40,218 nucleotides of DNA from a virus. The translations under genes were made by a program, and so were the position numbers. Below the pieces are notes generated by a model. That model ran no database searches, was not told the origin of the DNA, and saw only the letters and a list, made by a program, of their open reading frames with translations. This document shows, one piece after another, positions 12,158 through 37,992 of this stretch. The DNA lies in IMG/VR virus record IMGVR_UViG_3300025809_000041, positions 1 through 40,218 of that record; one strand, 5' to 3'. Position 1 is the first letter of the stretch, and every line of letters begins with the position of its first letter.

Positions 12158-13822
12158 TTATCGTCTCCCTGCCGTCGAAAATTCAAAGACCATTCCTTGT
12201 ACAGAAAAGGATTCTGTCTGCCCAATATTTACAAAAGTGGCCTGTGCAGAGAAACCTGATCCCTGAATGTCGCTGGTCATAATTGGTTTGGATGAACCGC
12301 CGTACAGTACGTTGGTTGCGTTATAACTTATGTTCCTACCGTCATATTGAGTAGGAGCGCCTGACGATGTTTGTGCATATGTTGCGGGTGTAGCTACATT
12401 GCCGTCACCCCAATCATATGTCATCGACAGGAGCATTTCTAACGGGCCTTCCGCCCGAATGAATGTATTGATCTTACGCATTACTTTACGCTGCTCTGTC
12501 TCTCCGAAATCTAAATACGGAGTGGCGTAGATGCTTACGATATCCTCGCCATTAAAGCTTATCCCGTTTTCTTGCTTATAGACTTTGCCATCGTAGTCAC
12601 CGTGGAGAATAAACTCTGTGGTTCCGATATACCCACTTGTGCAACAAGATGCCCTGATGCCCAGAAGTTCACCAAACTCCCAGCCAATAGAACCAGAACT
12701 ATTAGTTAACCCGCCTATAATACCAATGCTATCTGAAACAATTGTAGTACTGTCACCAATGAAATATCTGACTTGAGACTTAGACCTAATCACAACGCCA
12801 TTTAGCGTGGTCATGTCTTCGTTCTTAATAATATCGACTAATGTCGCCTGAATAGGTTTACTTAATGTTTCAAGCTCCACATCTCCTATTCGAGAAGTTG
12901 AAGCGCAAGGACGAAAACCATCAGGTGCGAGGAACATTAGGTCGCCGCCAATTTCCAGTACACTGTCCCTTGCCACGCAGCCTACGTTTGCGGTGACCTG
13001 TGCCAGAGTAAAGTTACCAGAGTTATCTACCCCAATCTTTTTGATTGAGTTGCTGCCGAAGACGAATAAATCATCACGGAATGGTTTAATCTGTACTACA
13101 TCAAAACCAGCGGCGATCTGCCCACCTCCCGCAGCCGAAGTCCAAGTGTATGGGTCGTTAGGGGCGCTGTGAGCTACCGCAGCGGCAGTACCTTCGTGGC
13201 CTGATAAGAAAATGTGGTTCTCAAATACATCGACCAAAGCAGGAGCGTTCAGCGCCTGTGCGCCACCCGCAGTATTGTTTGCAGCATCATACCCACCAGC
13301 GTGAGAAGACTTGATTTCTTTCCAGTTTGCCCCGTTAAATACTATGGCAGGGTTAACCCCGTCTACAAAGACGATGTGATTACCTGTGCCGAAGTTAAAA
13401 GTAGCATGACGCAGCTTATTTACAGTCAGACCGTTCAAGGACATTGGACGAGATACTGAGTGATCTAGTGTATACTTACGCCAGCCGATTGATGCGGTGT
13501 AAAAGTAAAAACTGTAAGTATTAGCTCCAGCATCCTGACGGGCGGCAATGATCTTAGTGGTATTCGTTACGTCTTCTTTAAAGATAGCCAGACCTAAGAC
13601 CTTGCCCTGTCCTGTTGTCTGTCCATCAACCGTCACTTCGCCGTAGTCACTATCAAATTGTGAGTAGCCTTCAATACGACGATAGCCCCCAAAGAGGCCC
13701 GGTTCGTAGTTAACAAGTCGTGTGGCAGAGCCGGGGCTATTATCCGAAAGATCTAAATGATTTTCGTTACTATTCAGACCGCCACTACAAACTAATTTGA
13801 AGGATTGTATTTTATCTGGCAT
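12158..13822 (-). CDS. Tail hub/tail tube-like structural protein (gp10/gp12-like)
   Basis: A 554-aa beta-rich protein starting MPDKIQSFKLVCSGGLNSNENHLDLSD. It continues with a GSATRLVNYEPGLFGGYRRIEGY motif that is common at the N-terminus of podoviral tail-stabilising or tail-tube proteins. The centre has repeated Phe/Val/Asp beta strands with DGVNPAIVFNG and FRDDLFVFGSNSIKKI, suggesting a propeller-like fold. It lies directly after the adaptor gene, with TAG immediately followed by ATG. The order capsid, adaptor, this protein, fibres matches short-tailed phages. It probably forms the tail below the adaptor ring. The precise homologue (P22 gp10 or T7 gp12) is uncertain. Confidence 0.75.
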   Translation of the reverse strand: MPDKIQSFKLVCSGGLNSNENHLDLSDNSPGSATRLVNYEPGLFGGYRRIEGYSQFDSDYGEVTVDGQTTGQGKVLGLAIFKEDVTNTTKIIAARQDAGANTYSFYFYTASIGWRKYTLDHSVSRPMSLNGLTVNKLRHATFNFGTGNHIVFVDGVNPAIVFNGANWKEIKSSHAGGYDAANNTAGGAQALNAPALVDVFENHIFLSGHEGTAAAVAHSAPNDPYTWTSAAGGGQIAAGFDVVQIKPFRDDLFVFGSNSIKKIGVDNSGNFTLAQVTANVGCVARDSVLEIGGDLMFLAPDGFRPCASTSRIGDVELETLSKPIQATLVDIIKNEDMTTLNGVVIRSKSQVRYFIGDSTTIVSDSIGIIGGLTNSSGSIGWEFGELLGIRASCCTSGYIGTTEFILHGDYDGKVYKQENGISFNGEDIVSIYATPYLDFGETEQRKVMRKINTFIRAEGPLEMLLSMTYDWGDGNVATPATYAQTSSGAPTQYDGRNISYNATNVLYGGSSKPIMTSDIQGSGFSAQATFVNIGQTESFSVQGMVFEFSTAGRR

Positions 13823-30858: not shown

Positions 30859-31574
30859 TAACCCAGAAGCCTCTGCGATCCACCACCTGTGACCCCACTG
30901 CGTAGGCCTACACGATCAGCGGCAGAGCGCCCGGCAGATAATGCCCCAGCACTACGGCTGGTGGTCTGGCTGCGTCCTGATCTCAGGTTTGGGAAGGCCT
31001 TTCGGTAGGCGATATCGAGCGCCTTGTCTGCCATCACCACCAAGGCCGTGCCGTTTGATCCTGTCGGCTGCTCAACATTCCGGCGGCTCTCATTGTGCAT
31101 GGCCAGTAAGCGAGAGCTTAGGCGGGATGCCATGCCATTCATAAAGCTGGATCGGATTGACCGGGCGTGATGGTAAAATTTCTCCTCATCATAATCTGCG
31201 GAATTTTTATATCTCAAAAACTCTAGCTCCATAGATGACTGAAGCAGACTGATCAGGTAGATGGCATTGTCCACGCAGTGTTGCTGGCCGAAGACTGTAA
31301 CCTTCGATCTGTACCCAACTAGGCGCACCCCAGTGAATACCTGCACCCCGAACAGCGCACCCCAGACAGGGTGCTTCACTTTTTTACCCAATGAGATTTG
31401 ATCTTTGACATATTCAGTCAGGGAGATGTCTAGCTCTGTGAGTGTGCAGTCATATTTCTCTTGGAGCGACTGCATAGCTTTAGCTGCCGCAATTGCTTCA
31501 GCCTCAGTGCATCCGTTCTCTACGGTACGCTGCGAGAATGCTTTCAGTTTTTTTAATATTTCTTGGCGGTTCAT
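30858..31574 (-). CDS. DUF2786-domain protein with DUF7168-like C-terminal region
   Basis: A 238-aa protein. Residues ~1-45 (QEILKKLKAFSQRTVENGCTEAEAIAAAKAMQ...) match DUF2786. The larger remaining region with YDEEKFYHHARSIRSSFMNGMASRLSSRL has the DUF7168 style. The family is common in phages and plasmids, and its function is unknown. The C-terminus is Arg/Ser/Gly-rich and disordered. The start is ATG 31574, which uses the GGAG of the shared leader; ATG 31589 is the upstream alternative, within the leader itself. Confidence 0.8.
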   Translation of the reverse strand: MNRQEILKKLKAFSQRTVENGCTEAEAIAAAKAMQSLQEKYDCTLTELDISLTEYVKDQISLGKKVKHPVWGALFGVQVFTGVRLVGYRSKVTVFGQQHCVDNAIYLISLLQSSMELEFLRYKNSADYDEEKFYHHARSIRSSFMNGMASRLSSRLLAMHNESRRNVEQPTGSNGTALVVMADKALDIAYRKAFPNLRSGRSQTTSRSAGALSAGRSAADRVGLRSGVTGGGSQRLLG

Positions 31575-31576
31575 TT

Positions 31577-31612
31577 GATTGGTCTCCATTGGTTATTTGG
31601 TTGGTTGGTTGT
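31577..31612 (-). promoter_or_regulatory. Shared leader element, copy D (before the DUF2786 gene)
   Basis: On the minus strand a CCAACCAACC run is followed, after a short AAATAA insertion, by CCAATGGAGACCAATC and then the start ATG. GGAG acts as SD 9 bases before ATG 31574. Confidence 0.7.
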
Positions 31613-31632
31613 TGGTATTCAGATCGAGGGTA

Positions 31633-31893
31633 TCAGTAGGCCTCCACATAGACGATTGTGGACGGCTTCAGGAATATCTCCCGGCCAATATCCTCGCTGT
31701 CGGTGCAGGAGTAATTGGCAGGCCCAAAGAAGTCTTTGCGATTGTAATGGTTGCGGATGTATTCAGTAGAGGCCGAAGGTTTACGTTTAAAATATCCACC
31801 CTCTTTAACTTTTCTCAGTTCGACTTTTTTAGTATATCCACCAAAGATATCAGCGGCCATTTCATTTAGTAAATTGAGGTTTGGTTTTGTCAT
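31633..31893 (-). CDS. Hypothetical protein
   Basis: An 86-aa, Lys/Tyr-rich basic protein starting at ATG 31893 with the shared GGAG leader. The first half is helical (PNLNLLNEMAADIFGGYTKKVEL), then it has aromatic residues and a small Cys-containing stretch. An upstream ATG at 31908 adds only leader residues (METNQ). Its transcript would be preceded by a 150-base AT-rich gap. Function unknown. Confidence 0.7.
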   Translation of the reverse strand: MTKPNLNLLNEMAADIFGGYTKKVELRKVKEGGYFKRKPSASTEYIRNHYNRKDFFGPANYSCTDSEDIGREIFLKPSTIVYVEAY

Positions 31894-31895
31894 TT

Positions 31896-31919
31896 GATTG
31901 GTCTCCATTGGTTGGTTGG
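31896..31919 (-). promoter_or_regulatory. Shared leader element, copy C
   Basis: Minus strand CCAACCAACC then AATGGAGACCAATC, ending 2 bases before the ATG. Same layout as copies A and D. Confidence 0.7.
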
Positions 31920-32126
31920 CATTTAGGCACACGGCCTGTGACCCCACACTATAGACTGTGGCGCAATTTAACAACTAATAAAGTGACAAATACAGTTTTA
32001 GCTAAATTACCTAAAAGCGCCTGAGAGCGCCACTGAGTGCGTTAACAGGTTCTGCCATATCTCAGATCAAAAAAGATCGTTTCGGCAATGTACGGCGATT
32101 TTGCTATTTTTGGGGTGATCTAAGAC

Positions 32127-32153
32127 AAAAAAAGACCCCAGCATTTGCCGGGG
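32127..32153 (-). terminator. Intrinsic terminator downstream of the 125-aa gene
   Basis: On the minus strand a 7-bp stem CCCCGGC / GCTGGGG (one G-U pair, loop AAAT) is followed, one base past the stem's GTC, by seven Ts (32127-32133). It separates the 32179-33962 genes from the downstream unit. The ~230-base stretch 31894-32126 otherwise has no gene. Confidence 0.75.
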
Positions 32154-32178
32154 CCAGTTGGGAGAAATTAGTGTCTAA

Positions 32179-32556
32179 TCAGCGGCTGTAAAATTCAGCC
32201 TCAGCCGCTGTTTCAATTCGATCATGGATGGCTACACCTCCAGATGTGTGAGACCCTGACGCAATAGGATGCAGCATAGTTCTTAGCAATTGACCGAACC
32301 GACTGTCAGAAGATCGAGCCAGATTACCTCCAAACATAGTTCCCGTGCGAGGCTGACCCTCGTCATCGAGCGGCACAATTTTGACACTGTTAGGCACATT
32401 GCCGGGAACCAACATAACTGCCGGGACATCCGCAGATGGCTCGAATGGACCTTCGGCATTTACCAAGCACAAGCTGGTGGCGTAGGATGAGACCCCGCCA
32501 TTTGTGCAGTCATAACCATCCAAAAACGGGCGATAAACTTGTATATGCAAACCCAT
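32179..32556 (-). CDS. Conserved hypothetical protein of phages and plasmids
   Basis: A 125-aa protein beginning MGLHIQVYRPFLDGYDCTNGG, with Gly/Pro-rich beta strands (MLVPGNVPNSVKIVPLDDEG). A similar N-terminus is familiar from phage and plasmid proteins encoded next to DUF932, but I cannot name the function. TAATG overlap with the DUF932 gene, and GGAGG SD before ATG 32556. The in-frame extension to 32592 is rejected. Confidence 0.75.
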   Translation of the reverse strand: MGLHIQVYRPFLDGYDCTNGGVSSYATSLCLVNAEGPFEPSADVPAVMLVPGNVPNSVKIVPLDDEGQPRTGTMFGGNLARSSDSRFGQLLRTMLHPIASGSHTSGGVAIHDRIETAAEAEFYSR

Positions 32557-33452
32557 TACGCTGCCTCCAAAAAACGGCTGTCGGACATCCACTTGTTGAC
32601 CTCAAGCTCTCGCGCCATCATCGATGTCGCCTTGGTCTCATTCTTGTTGGCTGTATTCCGCAGGTTGAACCCATTGCGGTCATCTGCATAGGTCGCATAA
32701 TTTGAGAACGCGCTGACTAAAGCAAACTTATTTGCACCGCGCACTTGGACCTCGTCCCGGTACAGTTTGAACATCTTATCGGCCTTGGTCTCGACATTCC
32801 GGCGCTTGGCCTCTGGGTCGGGCTTGGAAGTGTTCAACATACTATCCAACAGACGCTTCACTGTATTGTCCGCCAGCGCAGTCTGAGCAAATTGCTGGAG
32901 CTGTTCTGACTGTAGATAGAAGTCATTCTTTGACTGACGCAGTTGCTTGATGAATGCCTCGACAGAAAACTGTGAGGTATTCCGCCGCCGGACTGTAGAG
33001 TATTCGCCCGACACTTGGCCGTTTAAGCAAAAGAAATCGATATTGCCGAACAGTGTAGTATTTGATCCAGAGCCACCATCTATAGAGTGCAGCGCGATAA
33101 TCCGCTGGGCCAATTTCGTTGTGTGGCCGTTGGTGGTGACGATCTCGCTGGATACCGAAGGAAGCTGAACATCCATCATGGCAAATGCATTGGACCTGCC
33201 ATTCTTGTAACTGATCTTTGCACCTTCGATGTCTTCGGCTGTCAGGTTCTCTTGCACCTGACTGAATACACCCTCGAAAAAGTCACGATGGGAAGCACAG
33301 GTGAACGTGTCACCTACATGGCCGATCACTTCGCCTGTCACTTCGTTGATGACAAATTTGTGCTTCGCCAAGCGCGAGGCCTCAAAGGTTGGGGTGAAGT
33401 CAATATTGGTTGGAAGTTCGAGGGCGTGATTAAAGTTTTGGAAGTCTAACAT
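32556..33452 (-). CDS. DUF932 (phage/plasmid-like) protein
   Basis: A 298-aa protein (start ATG 33452, with AAAGG SD). The pattern FVINEVTGEVIGHVGDTFTCASHRDFFE, a central SNTTLFGNIDFFCLNGQVSG and a C-terminal RNGFNLRNTANKNET fit the DUF932 family, which is frequent in phages and plasmids and has no settled biochemical role. Dense with beta strands. It is the largest gene of the module and carries a variant of the shared leader. The longer form to 33473 adds MIVKGSQ and has no SD. Confidence 0.85.
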   Translation of the reverse strand: MLDFQNFNHALELPTNIDFTPTFEASRLAKHKFVINEVTGEVIGHVGDTFTCASHRDFFEGVFSQVQENLTAEDIEGAKISYKNGRSNAFAMMDVQLPSVSSEIVTTNGHTTKLAQRIIALHSIDGGSGSNTTLFGNIDFFCLNGQVSGEYSTVRRRNTSQFSVEAFIKQLRQSKNDFYLQSEQLQQFAQTALADNTVKRLLDSMLNTSKPDPEAKRRNVETKADKMFKLYRDEVQVRGANKFALVSAFSNYATYADDRNGFNLRNTANKNETKATSMMARELEVNKWMSDSRFLEAA

Positions 33453-33474
33453 TTGTGATCCTTTCACGATCAAA

Positions 33475-33498
33475 GATTGGTCCTGTTGGTTGGTTGGC
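33475..33498 (-). promoter_or_regulatory. Shared leader element, copy B (variant)
   Basis: Minus strand CCAACCAACC followed by AACAGGACCAATC. The GGAG is replaced by CAGG, and the SD (AAAGG) comes ~20 bases later. It is 23 bases upstream of the start ATG. Confidence 0.55.
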
Positions 33499-33570
33499 TA
33501 AGTGAACAAAATTGTTAGGATATCGAGCCAGAGCGATCCGGCCCCATAACATATCAAGAACAGGCGCACC

Positions 33571-33780
33571 TCACGACACTGAGGCGATTAGACCGTCTTT
33601 CATGACGATCTGGCCAAACCATTCGCGTCCATGCCCGGTGATATGTGGGCGGTTGCAGACAGTCAGCTTTCCATTTGCCTGATACTGTGGACCAAACAGG
33701 CTGGTCTCTAAGTATTGTAGGCGCTGGCCAATATGCTCTTTGCAGTTCTTTTTGGTTGGGTAGTTTGCAATCAGTGTCAT
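33571..33780 (-). CDS. Hypothetical protein
   Basis: A 69-aa protein starting MTLIANYPTKKNCKEHIGQRL. The pattern with RPHITGHGREWFGQIVM suggests a small beta-rich fold (resemblance to other phage proteins recalled, no name). TAATG coupling to the preceding gene. Function unknown. Confidence 0.75.
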   Translation of the reverse strand: MTLIANYPTKKNCKEHIGQRLQYLETSLFGPQYQANGKLTVCNRPHITGHGREWFGQIVMKDGLIASVS

Positions 33781-33962
33781 TATGATTGCCCTCCCTTTTT
33801 TAGAACACGAATAAATTGCGGCAGGGACAGTTCGCCCATCTCGCGCTGTTCTTGAAGTGATTGGCTGAAGTATGTGGAAGCAAGCAGCGCATCGATGTCC
33901 GAGGGTGTTTTGCGGTTATGTGTGGCGGCTTCCATTGCTACCAGTTGGTTCATAGTGATCAT
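33780..33962 (-). CDS. Small hypothetical protein, first gene of the leftward early module
   Basis: 60 aa. The start is ATG 33962 with the shared GGAG leader; alternatives are 33977 (upstream) and 33953. Helical, with LASTYFSQSLQEQREMGEL. It is the first gene after the promoter at 34014-34042. Function unknown. Confidence 0.65.
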   Translation of the reverse strand: MITMNQLVAMEAATHNRKTPSDIDALLASTYFSQSLQEQREMGELSLPQFIRVLKKGGQS

Positions 33963-33964
33963 GT

Positions 33965-33986
33965 GATTGGTCTCCATTGGTTGGTT
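33965..33986 (-). promoter_or_regulatory. Shared leader element, copy A
   Basis: Minus strand CCAACCAATGGAGACCAATC, ending just before the ATG at 33962. Same layout as copies C and D but with a shorter CCAACC run. Confidence 0.7.
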
Positions 33987-33988
33987 TT

Positions 33989-34006
33989 AAAAAACGGCCA
34001 AAGCCG
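33989..34006 (-). terminator. Possible attenuator in the leftward early leader
   Basis: Minus strand CGGC-TTTG-GCCG (4-bp stem) followed by six Ts. It is between the promoter start (~34007) and the first gene. The short stem makes it weak, suitable for attenuation rather than complete termination. Confidence 0.4.
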
Positions 34007-34013
34007 CACTAGG

Positions 34014-34042
34014 TGTATATAGATGCCACTTACCAAAATCAA
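34014..34042 (-). promoter_or_regulatory. Leftward early promoter
   Basis: Minus strand TTGATT and TATACA, spacer 17 bases. It is divergent from the rightward early genes. Confidence 0.6.
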
Positions 34043-34514: not shown

Positions 34515-34572
34515 GCCTGTTAACTTTTACTTGACCGCCTGTTAACTTTTTTGTTAAATGGCCCGGTTAACC
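34515..34572 (+). promoter_or_regulatory. Promoter with operator-like repeats for the integrase/ThyX operon
   Basis: TTGACC (34531) and TTAAAT (34554) are separated by 17 bases. The 14-base sequence GCCTGTTAACTTTT occurs at 34515-34528 and 34537-34550, exactly 22 bases (two helical turns) apart, one copy upstream of -35 and one inside the spacer. A third GTTAAC lies in the palindrome GGTTAACC (34565-34572) after the -10. This arrangement is expected of a repressor-controlled promoter, though no repressor gene is recognised in the window. Confidence 0.65.
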
Positions 34573-34592
34573 AATTAGCAAGGACCAATAAC

Positions 34593-34850
34593 ATGAATTT
34601 TGAATTAGGAAATTGCGTGGAGCCTACACGCAGCATAGCAGAAGTATCTAGCCCATCGGACGTTAAGGTGTGCTTCACTTTGGAAGAGATTAAAGCTCTG
34701 GCGCAGGACTACCATGCACAGAACTTTGAACACGGCGATGACCTTGTCTGCCAGACCACCCGCCACTTAGAATTCCGAAAGCGTGACGTAAACATAATGC
34801 TGAAGATACTCTACGCAATCGAACAGTATGAGGAGATGTCTAATGGCTAA
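34593..34850 (+). CDS. Small early protein upstream of the integrase
   Basis: 85 aa, starting at ATG 34593 with AAGGA 8 bases upstream. The longer TTG start at 34551 overlaps the -10 and is rejected. The first part is acidic (MNFELGNCVEPTRSIAEV), then a helix with LEEIKALAQDYHAQN and a C-terminal helix RKRDVNIMLKILYAIEQYEEM. It overlaps the integrase start by 8 bases and so may be translationally coupled. It could be an excisionase-like partner by position only. Confidence 0.7.
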   Translation: MNFELGNCVEPTRSIAEVSSPSDVKVCFTLEEIKALAQDYHAQNFEHGDDLVCQTTRHLEFRKRDVNIMLKILYAIEQYEEMSNG

Positions 34851-36785: not shown

Positions 36786-36821
36786 TACATTACTTAGGTA
36801 AGTGACTGTTATATAAACAAA

Positions 36822-36860
36822 TGGCTCCGGCGGTAGGGATCGAACCTACGACCAATTGAG
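36822..36860 (-). other. attP core: 39-base identity to the 3' end of a tRNA-Asn gene
   Basis: On the minus strand the segment ends in GCCGGAGCCA (acceptor 3' strand, discriminator G and encoded CCA). It contains the complete T-arm GTAGG-TTCGATC-CCTAC and before it ATTGGTC, matching the end of the anticodon stem and variable loop of alphaproteobacterial tRNA-Asn. Upstream of the segment (beyond 36860) the tRNA shape breaks down, so this is not a whole tRNA. Integration here would regenerate the host tRNA. The type (Asn) is judged from the discriminator G and ATTGGTCGTAGG. Confidence 0.82.
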
Positions 36861-37034
36861 TGGTAGGAAGTATTGTATTTAAACGATAAATTAGCGATTA
36901 TTATAAATACCTACTAACTTTAAGTGGCGTGGTAAAACAATTACAAATGCATTTAATTAGGTGTTGACAGGTTTAGTAATCTGTATAAGCTGACGCTGTC
37001 CCTTTGGAGGGGCAGTATAACCAACGGCTAGTAA
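36861..37034. promoter_or_regulatory. Leader between attP and primase, possible weak promoter and hairpin
   Basis: AT-rich. Contains TTGACA at 36964 with TATAAG at 36984 (14-base spacer, too short for a normal promoter) and a 7-bp hairpin CTGTCCC / GGGGCAG (36996-37015) that encloses the only SD-like GGAGG, ~22 bases from the primase ATG. No ORF. Integrase arm sites could be here. Confidence 0.4.
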
Positions 37035-37802
37035 ATGACCTATCAAGAACAACTACAGATAATAAAAGATATACCTATCCAAGAAGGTGTTACAAAAGTA
37101 ATAACCTGCCCATTCTGCTATCAACCAAAGAAGTTAGCTCTATCAAAGATTGATGGTAAGTTAATGTGGAACTGTTACAGAGCCAGTTGCTCTGCCAAAG
37201 GAATTTACACAGGTAAACGTAACCTTCAGGCAGTCAAAAACTATCTAGCAAATGAAGTTAGCATGAAGACTGCTTTTAGAAAGCCTGTACCTTCGATGAC
37301 TACATCAGTCAGAAACCATCAACCAGCCATCGACTACCTAGAAAAGAACAACAGCCTAGAAGCATACGAAAGCGGTTTGGTAGATGTCCGATATGCTCCC
37401 GCCGAAGACAGGGTGTTATTCTGTAGCGCAGAAGGTGCAGTGGGTAGATCACTCAAATCATACGGACCTAAGTGGATTACATATGGATCACTTCCCGAAG
37501 GAATACACATTGGTAAAGGTGATACCGCAGTCTTAGTTGAGGATGCCCCTAGCGCCTGTAGTGTGAGTCGCATCGATGGCTTAGTTGGTGTGGCATTGCT
37601 TGGTACTAATGTTACCCCAGCAATTAAAAATTCTCTGCATTTGTATTCCACAAAATATTTAGTGCTTGACAAGGATGCATCTAAAAAGGCATTACAAATT
37701 AGTAGGGCGCTCGGAACTAAGCTATTAGTAAGACTCACAAGCGAGGATCTAAAGTGCCTATCAGTTAAGAAAATAACTAAGGTACTTAATTGTGATTATT
37801 AG
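37035..37802 (+). CDS. DNA primase (zinc-finger plus TOPRIM-like, T7 gp4 N-terminal type)
   Basis: A 255-aa protein. The zinc ribbon is Cys25/Cys28 (CPFC) and Cys47/Cys52 (NCYRASC). A TOPRIM-like core follows: VLVEDAPSACSV (about 165-176, acidic Glu/Asp) and YLVLDKDASKKA (about 208-219, DxD). It synthesises RNA primers for lagging-strand replication. The T7 gp4 helicase half is a separate gene here (38313). The start is ATG 37035; the SD is unclear. The C-terminal length (255 aa) fits a stand-alone primase. Confidence 0.85.
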   Translation: MTYQEQLQIIKDIPIQEGVTKVITCPFCYQPKKLALSKIDGKLMWNCYRASCSAKGIYTGKRNLQAVKNYLANEVSMKTAFRKPVPSMTTSVRNHQPAIDYLEKNNSLEAYESGLVDVRYAPAEDRVLFCSAEGAVGRSLKSYGPKWITYGSLPEGIHIGKGDTAVLVEDAPSACSVSRIDGLVGVALLGTNVTPAIKNSLHLYSTKYLVLDKDASKKALQISRALGTKLLVRLTSEDLKCLSVKKITKVLNCDY

Positions 37803-37992
37803 AACCAATAATATGTCAGGTGTTATCTATACCTGCGCTCAATATGGGGAGAAGCCATCAAGCTGGCAAAATCCTCATCAGGCTCCCCCTCAATAAACTG
37901 AAATAAAAATATGGGGGCGCAGTCAATCTGCTGCGTGAAAAAATATTCGTCTACGATACCAGTACAGACGTTAAAGCAAAGGGAATGGTACA
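37803..37992. other. Non-coding gap with nested stem-loops
   Basis: 190 bases between primase and the 68-aa gene. GGGGAG (37846-37851) pairs with CTCCCC (37883-37888), and inside it GCCA pairs with TGGC. CGCAG (37918-37922) pairs with CTGCG (37931-37935). A 27-aa ORF at 37813 lacks an SD and is not called. Could be a structured leader or small RNA. Low confidence. Confidence 0.35.

Follow-up and report, generated by a model that had tools for sequence, protein, structure and literature searches.

The repeated leader found before several early genes of an HMO-2011-type phage is best read as a two-part target at which a small RNA (sRNA), encoded by the phage and acting in trans, binds by base pairing, a reading which we put at a probability of about 0.87 on the strength of sequence comparison. 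The DNA analysed, referred to here as the window, is a linear virus record of 40.2 kb belonging to the HMO-2011-type phages, a dominant and broadly distributed group of marine viruses (PMC9038755). Among isolates it is closest to Roseobacter phage CRP-738 (terminase 88% identical, DUF2786 protein 58%; PMC9038755), while its close IMG/VR relatives include G001 (53.2 kb), G003 (52.2 kb), G002 and G013, the DUF932 proteins of which, where present, are 95-98% identical to that of the window. The candidate sRNA, ~75 nt long and previously undescribed, is encoded by these relatives at the site where the early and late operons converge, some 13 kb beyond the point corresponding to the window's end. 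In the openly accessible literature searched, no regulatory RNA is described for HMO-2011-type phages, and none like this sRNA.

The leader repeat is real, and a ribosome-binding site is not all that it contains: two conserved stretches, AACCAAC and GACCAATC, lie on either side of the Shine-Dalgarno sequence (SD). GGAGACCAATCAmATG occurs exactly three times in the window (33975-33960, 31906-31891 and 31587-31572), where shuffled sequences lead us to expect 0.00 occurrences, and AACCAAC is found five times in the start regions of the window against 0.18 expected (P 1e-6), with none on the antisense strand. The original prediction placed four copies on the minus strand, and all four are present there: before the 60-aa gene (AACCAACCAATGGAGACCAATCACATG, 33960..33986, comprising linker complement, SD GGAG, loop complement and the ATG at 33962), upstream of DUF932 (CCAACCAACCAACAGGACCAATC, 33475..33498), before the 86-aa gene (CCAACCAACCAATGGAGACCAATCAAATG, 31891..31919, ATG 31893, with a small hairpin AGGCCGTGTGCCT in front) and before the DUF2786 gene (ACCAACAACCAACCAACCAAATAACCAATGGAGACCAATCAAATG, 31572..31616, ATG 31574). 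The letters assigned to two of them required correction, since the full CCAACCAACC stands upstream of DUF932, the 86-aa gene and DUF2786, whereas the copy before the 60-aa gene is limited to CCAACCAA; in the DUF932 copy the sequence is AGGACCAATC and not GGAGACCAATC. Similarly, the GGAG of the element serves as SD in three copies, as had been proposed, but not in the fourth, for the DUF932 copy lies ~30 nt above another, better SD (GTGAAAGGATCACAAATG) that precedes the ATG in use at 33452. A TTG at 33473 was considered as the DUF932 start and judged unlikely, its SD being degenerate in relatives and another SD preceding the ATG.

One possible explanation for such a repeat is a duplicated ribosome-binding leader and nothing else, that is, an unstructured A/C-rich tract with SD and spacer, which boosts ribosome loading and has been copied between genes. 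This would be in keeping with the co-orientation of element and genes, with the good spacing of GGAG in three copies and with a (CCAA)n tract predicted to be unpaired at the DUF2786 leader. It does not explain why the DUF932 copy retains CCAACC and ACCAATC although its SD has decayed and a different SD is used.

The same comparison with relatives bears on the choice of start codons. The suggestion that starts annotated at METNQM or METNHM are five residues too long is borne out: G001, G002, G003 and G013 either lack the upstream ATG of ATGGAG or have it in another frame (CCAACCAACCAACCGGAGACCAATCAAATG; AATAATCGGAGACCAATCAAATG; CCAATGATCAGGAGACC), and no change is seen among the close relatives in the downstream ATG or its SD, so that the shorter starts are the right ones. 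For DUF2786 the spurious ATG (METNQ) and the true start at 31574 lie within 31574..31589 on the minus strand, and the corresponding pairs are 31908/31893 for the 86-aa gene and 33977/33962 for the 60-aa gene. As a separate observation, the GenBank starts of gp61 (51614) and gp64 (53398) in CRP-738 (L014) also look too long, the former being a spurious ATGGAG with the true ATG at about 51602, the latter a GTG above the hairpin and sRNA site of that gene with the true ATG at about 53329.

The list of four copies was incomplete, for two more occur on the plus strand. A degenerate copy, TTAACCAATTAGCAAGGACCAATAACATG (34567..34595), precedes the divergent 88-aa gene upstream of the integrase, is intact as CCAACCAACAAGGACCAATAACATG in relatives and has a bipartite match to the sRNA, while AACCAACGGCTAGTAA (37019..37034), ahead of the primase ATG at 37035, has the linker complement without the loop complement. 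Directly 5' of the latter site is a hairpin, CTGTCCCT-TTGG-AGGGGCAG (36996..37015, plus strand), the stem of which is also found in CRP-738 with a different loop. A pseudoknot between the UUGG loop of this primase hairpin and CCAA was considered and set aside as not conserved, the loop in CRP-738 being GCGA. More generally, AACCAAC recurs in the leaders of related phages on the sense strand, often right after a hairpin. A sigma70-like promoter for the 60-aa gene (TTGATT-17-TATACA, 34014..34042, minus strand) was picked out by eye, and from it the predicted transcript would start at a GCGGC..GCCG hairpin just above the sRNA site. Between this promoter and the leader, at 33984-34007, there is a terminator-like hairpin, GCGGCTTTGGCCG followed by T6, apparently at the predicted 5' end of the transcript.

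Other features of this region were also noted. Repeated TGTTAAC boxes surround a TTGACC-17-TTAGAT-like promoter of the 88-aa/integrase operon at 34515-34575 and may constitute an operator. A copy of a tRNA 3' end (minus strand CAATTGGTCGTAGGTTCGATCCCTACCGCCGGAGCCA) lies near the integrase at 36800-36860 and is likely the attP core; similar copies exist in CRP-738 (2956) and G010 (7749), and ARAGORN found no full tRNA in the window. The leader of a 68-aa gene (37895-37992) contains two conserved hairpins ending ACAGACGTTAAA..AAAGG, which have no Rfam match and are kept in G001, G002, G003, G009, CRP-3, CRP-212 and CRP-235.

The putative partner of these leaders was recognised as a composite of the same motifs with no gene following it, located where early and late strands converge in G001, G003, G009 and CRP-738 (AACCAACGAACAAGGTGGACCAATC in the last), with a variant composite in the same situation in G010. 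Read on the early strand, at the end of which it sits, the unit consists of a sigma70-type promoter (TTGACC-17-TAnnnT), a hairpin with the loop GAUUGGUC, a linker (GUUGGUU in the window's group) and a GC hairpin followed by a U tract, which together form an intrinsic terminator. In the relatives, at the level of sequence, it is thus an independent gene with its own promoter and terminator, and in 21 of 24 loci it adjoins a homologous late gene. In CRP-738 it lies at 12728-12799 (plus strand), from which an RNA of 65-80 nt is predicted. At least 40 IMG/VR records contain homologues, as do the roseophages CRP-738, CRP-212, CRP-235 and CRP-3. A scan of IMG/VR with a 20-base pattern matched 34 records, all of which have TTGACC, an 8-bp stem (7-8 pairs formed) and a GC-rich terminator stem (in L159 the contig end cuts the terminator off), and 33 of which passed an automatic check of the -35 and -10 elements. 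A covariance model of the sRNA gave 42 matches at E<1e-3, being found in 42 of 43 sources; it has no match in the window, the sequence of which ends before the sRNA locus, and the window's own sRNA is predicted to carry the GUUGGUU linker and the GAUUGGUC loop. At the same convergent site the model matches CRP-212 (E 5e-6) and, weakly, CRP-235 (E 0.015), while CRP-3 was assigned by eye from GAAAAG-UUUGGUCA-CUUUUC-AAGUUAG, UUUGGUCA being the hairpin loop of the CRP-3/-212/-235 group. HMO-2011 and CRP-1 have no sRNA at this site. The Rfam 15 models, at gathering score, do not match the sRNA in L078, L106, L099 and L109, which hold sRNA loci. The U-rich terminator tail is, at most, compatible with Hfq or ProQ.

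The secondary structure of the sRNA is conserved and covaries on the predicted strand. Each of ten distinct sequences forms the complete set of eight stem pairs, six of which have changed on both sides; none of 500 shuffles reached this outcome. In an alignment of 26 distinct rows 99.6% of stem cells are paired, and double changes number 49, where shuffles give 12.0 (again 0/500), although this alignment was fitted to the covariance model, and the ten-sequence test is the cleaner one. The loop core GAUUGGUC and the linker GUUGGUU are unpaired and nearly invariant. Pairing in stem 1 holds for 230 of 232 cells on the sRNA strand against 186 of 232 on the opposite strand, and this asymmetry fixes the transcribed strand. 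These properties bear directly on the proposal that the leader is bound by an RNA-binding (or DNA-binding) protein of phage or host, in which case the sRNA-like locus would be a further site or an antisense copy. The motif is indeed repeated, oriented and gene-proximal, and belongs to the early genes of one module. Nevertheless, the locus is antisense to the leaders and possesses a promoter, a terminator and a strand-specific stem, and a protein site needs neither the complementarity between locus and leaders nor the covariation of stem, linker and leader, such that we consider this explanation very improbable.

The complementarity between the two partners is exact in both parts. The loop GAUUGGUC is the complement of GACCAATC between SD and ATG, and the linker GGUUGG(UU) that of (AA)CCAACC above the SD, the order of the parts being suited to an antiparallel duplex with the SD in between. 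When 54 start regions of the window were cofolded with the sRNA of G001, a relative with a 98% identical DUF932 protein, used because the window stops short of the locus, the four originally reported leaders took ranks 1 (DUF932), 2 (DUF2786), 3 (86-aa) and 4 (60-aa), with energies of -17.5 to -12.7 kcal/mol, the next being -10.5; the primase leader ranked 11, and the 88-aa leader was weak at rank 24. In CRP-738 the stem arm and linker CCUUGUUCGUUGGUU form a 15-nt perfect complement of the 69-aa gene leader AACCAACGAACAAGG. The early or replication genes that have such a site in front number about 4 to 7 in each phage and encode DUF932, DUF2786, the 60-, 86- and 88-aa products and primase, and in other phages integrase or helicase. 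Long-duplex genome scans with RNAduplex were abandoned as too noisy on account of the GC-rich arms, and 7-mer counts against shuffled sRNAs were not discriminating.

The complementarity to these remote ribosome-binding regions is not only above chance but also coevolves. Where the linker differs, it is matched by the phage's own leaders: AAGUUAG by CTAACTT in CRP-3, AGUUAGAAU by ATTCTAACT in CRP-212 and CAAGUUUAG by CTAAACTT in CRP-235, the leader order in all three being linker complement, SD and loop complement TGACCAAA. Examples are ATCTAACTTGGAGACTGACCAATG and three more leaders in CRP-3 (loop UUUGGUCA), CAATTCTAACTGGAGTAAATGACCAAATG and others in CRP-212, TTTAAACTTGAAAAGGAAATGACCAAATG and others in CRP-235, and, in G010 (linker AGUUGGUUAAU, loop UUGGUUACC), ATAACCAACTTTGAGAGGTAACCAAAATG; G009, with few matching leaders, is the weakest case. 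AACCAAC is found in 44 of 556 start regions of GUUGGUU phages versus 0 of 182 others (P 2.5e-6), CTAACT in 11 of 121 start regions of phages with the matching linker versus 8 of 617 others (P 3.6e-5), and TAAACTT in 4 of 61 versus 2 of 677 (P 6e-4). These start regions come from a simple gene caller, GenBank starts alone giving the same contrast at lower counts, and as the genomes inside a linker class are related, the coevolution rests on about four linker variants. The heptamer most enriched at starts is the complement of the phage's own linker in CRP-3 (CTAACTT, P 2e-8) and G010 (TAACCAA), and in CRP-212 TTCTAAC, likewise complementary to its linker, is among the most enriched. The enrichment is confined to the sense strand, antisense counts being near 0; a reversed-sequence control is uninformative for GUUGGUU, which is nearly the same word when reversed. 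HMO-2011 and CRP-1, which are without the sRNA, have no such leaders except one (HMO 1974).

The original prediction held that relatives having the genes without the element would count against it. Taken literally, CRP-3, CRP-212 and CRP-235 are such relatives, yet their genes carry instead a different element matched to their own sRNA. Because the element thus tracks loop and linker class by class, it is not explained by a fixed protein or by a host S1/ribosome enhancer, neither of which is required to covary with the sRNA. For the duplicated ribosome-binding leader, likewise, there is no reason why the parts flanking the SD should change in step with loop and linker across phage classes, and we regard it as improbable. 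Pairing of the sRNA with the leaders is well supported by these comparisons. The earlier proposal of a trans-acting binding site was accordingly right in kind, with the phage sRNA, rather than an RNA-binding protein or a translation enhancer, as the best-supported partner. Since the sRNA explains both halves of the element, nut/boxA, attP/integrase-arm and tRNA D-loop pairing were dropped as accounts of AACCAAC. An exact pattern scan of 85k bacterial and archaeal genomes for the composite gave 10 scattered matches in unrelated taxa, which we read as chance, and a sub-threshold Rfam PsrR1 hit in the window's module, at an intrinsic terminator, was rejected.

How might the pairing act? The linker would pair with AACCAAC above the SD and the loop with GACCAAU(C) between SD and ATG, while part of the 3' arm of the stem (CCUU) could pair with the SD itself. 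From a gene, a structure, matched targets and coevolution, all established at sequence level, we infer an RNA that is transcribed, pairs with its targets inside the cell, occludes the SD and represses translation. The duplex would hide the SD and so repress translation, allowing one RNA to tune or shut off an early-gene regulon, probably as more copies of it accumulate in the course of infection or in the lysogen. The most likely effect would be a coordinated translational repression, and the early or replication functions of the targets point most readily to a coordinated early shut-off or to a brake connected with lysogeny. Alternatively, the sRNA may pair with the mRNAs and activate or stabilise them, or the leaders may be sponges that titrate it from host targets; several leaders have hairpins or hammerhead ribozymes upstream that could undergo remodelling or processing, and many sites per genome could titrate an RNA. 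We think these outcomes rather unlikely, as the pairing covers both sides of the SD, the classical position for repression, and the sites lie close above the starts, as expected of targets.

Type II hammerheads (RF02276; PMC3088659) occur immediately upstream of sRNA sites in leaders of the relatives CRP-212, CRP-3 and G017 (32-38 bits, gathering 37), all on the minus strand (L086 2566-2631 and 1806-1881; L085 1007-1078 and 356-431; L133 2431-2493 and 4284-4346), and a search of the window's leaders gave no match. They are neighbours of the element and distinct from it, and by cleaving themselves they would place the 5' end immediately above the target.

Among known phage RNAs the closest likeness is to c4 of P1/P7, also phage-encoded, with complementary stretches probably in loops, which pairs around the ribosome-binding site of a phage mRNA and differs in specificity by small steps between relatives (heteroimmunity) (PMC12197685). 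Nevertheless, c4 acts on one mRNA (ant) (PMC12197685), whereas about 4 to 7 separate leaders in each phage match the present sRNA, which, unlike c4, has its own promoter and stands as an independent gene at another locus, without an Rfam match. Similarly, sar of P22 and OOP of lambda are short phage RNAs that block a phage mRNA by pairing at or near its start, but these are cis-encoded antisense to one gene (PMC12197685), while the sRNA described here is encoded in trans and has imperfect matches in many genes on both strands. VpdS of phage VP882 resembles it as a phage-encoded trans-acting sRNA influencing phage and host mRNAs, but it is Hfq-dependent and belongs to Vibrio and a different phage group, and PMC12197685 describes for it no conserved leader motif shared by phage genes. 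We therefore file the sRNA as a new family, a variant of phage base-pairing sRNAs which serves many leaders and whose code diverges between lineages.

A broader and tentative possibility, which we hold to be less probable than not, is that one sRNA acts as a master switch of early genes in integrase-bearing HMO-2011-type phages, an RNA repressor for immunity or early shut-off, with a swappable linker/leader code that diverges by lineage in the manner of immunity groups, and with hammerheads trimming some target leaders. The sRNA seed and its targets have changed together in about four variants, providing a natural series of compensatory mutations by which mechanism and specificity are directly testable with existing isolates. 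The modular sRNA/leader code may also find use in tools, and the system as a whole suggests that early genes or lysogeny in integrase-bearing phages are subject to control at the level of RNA.
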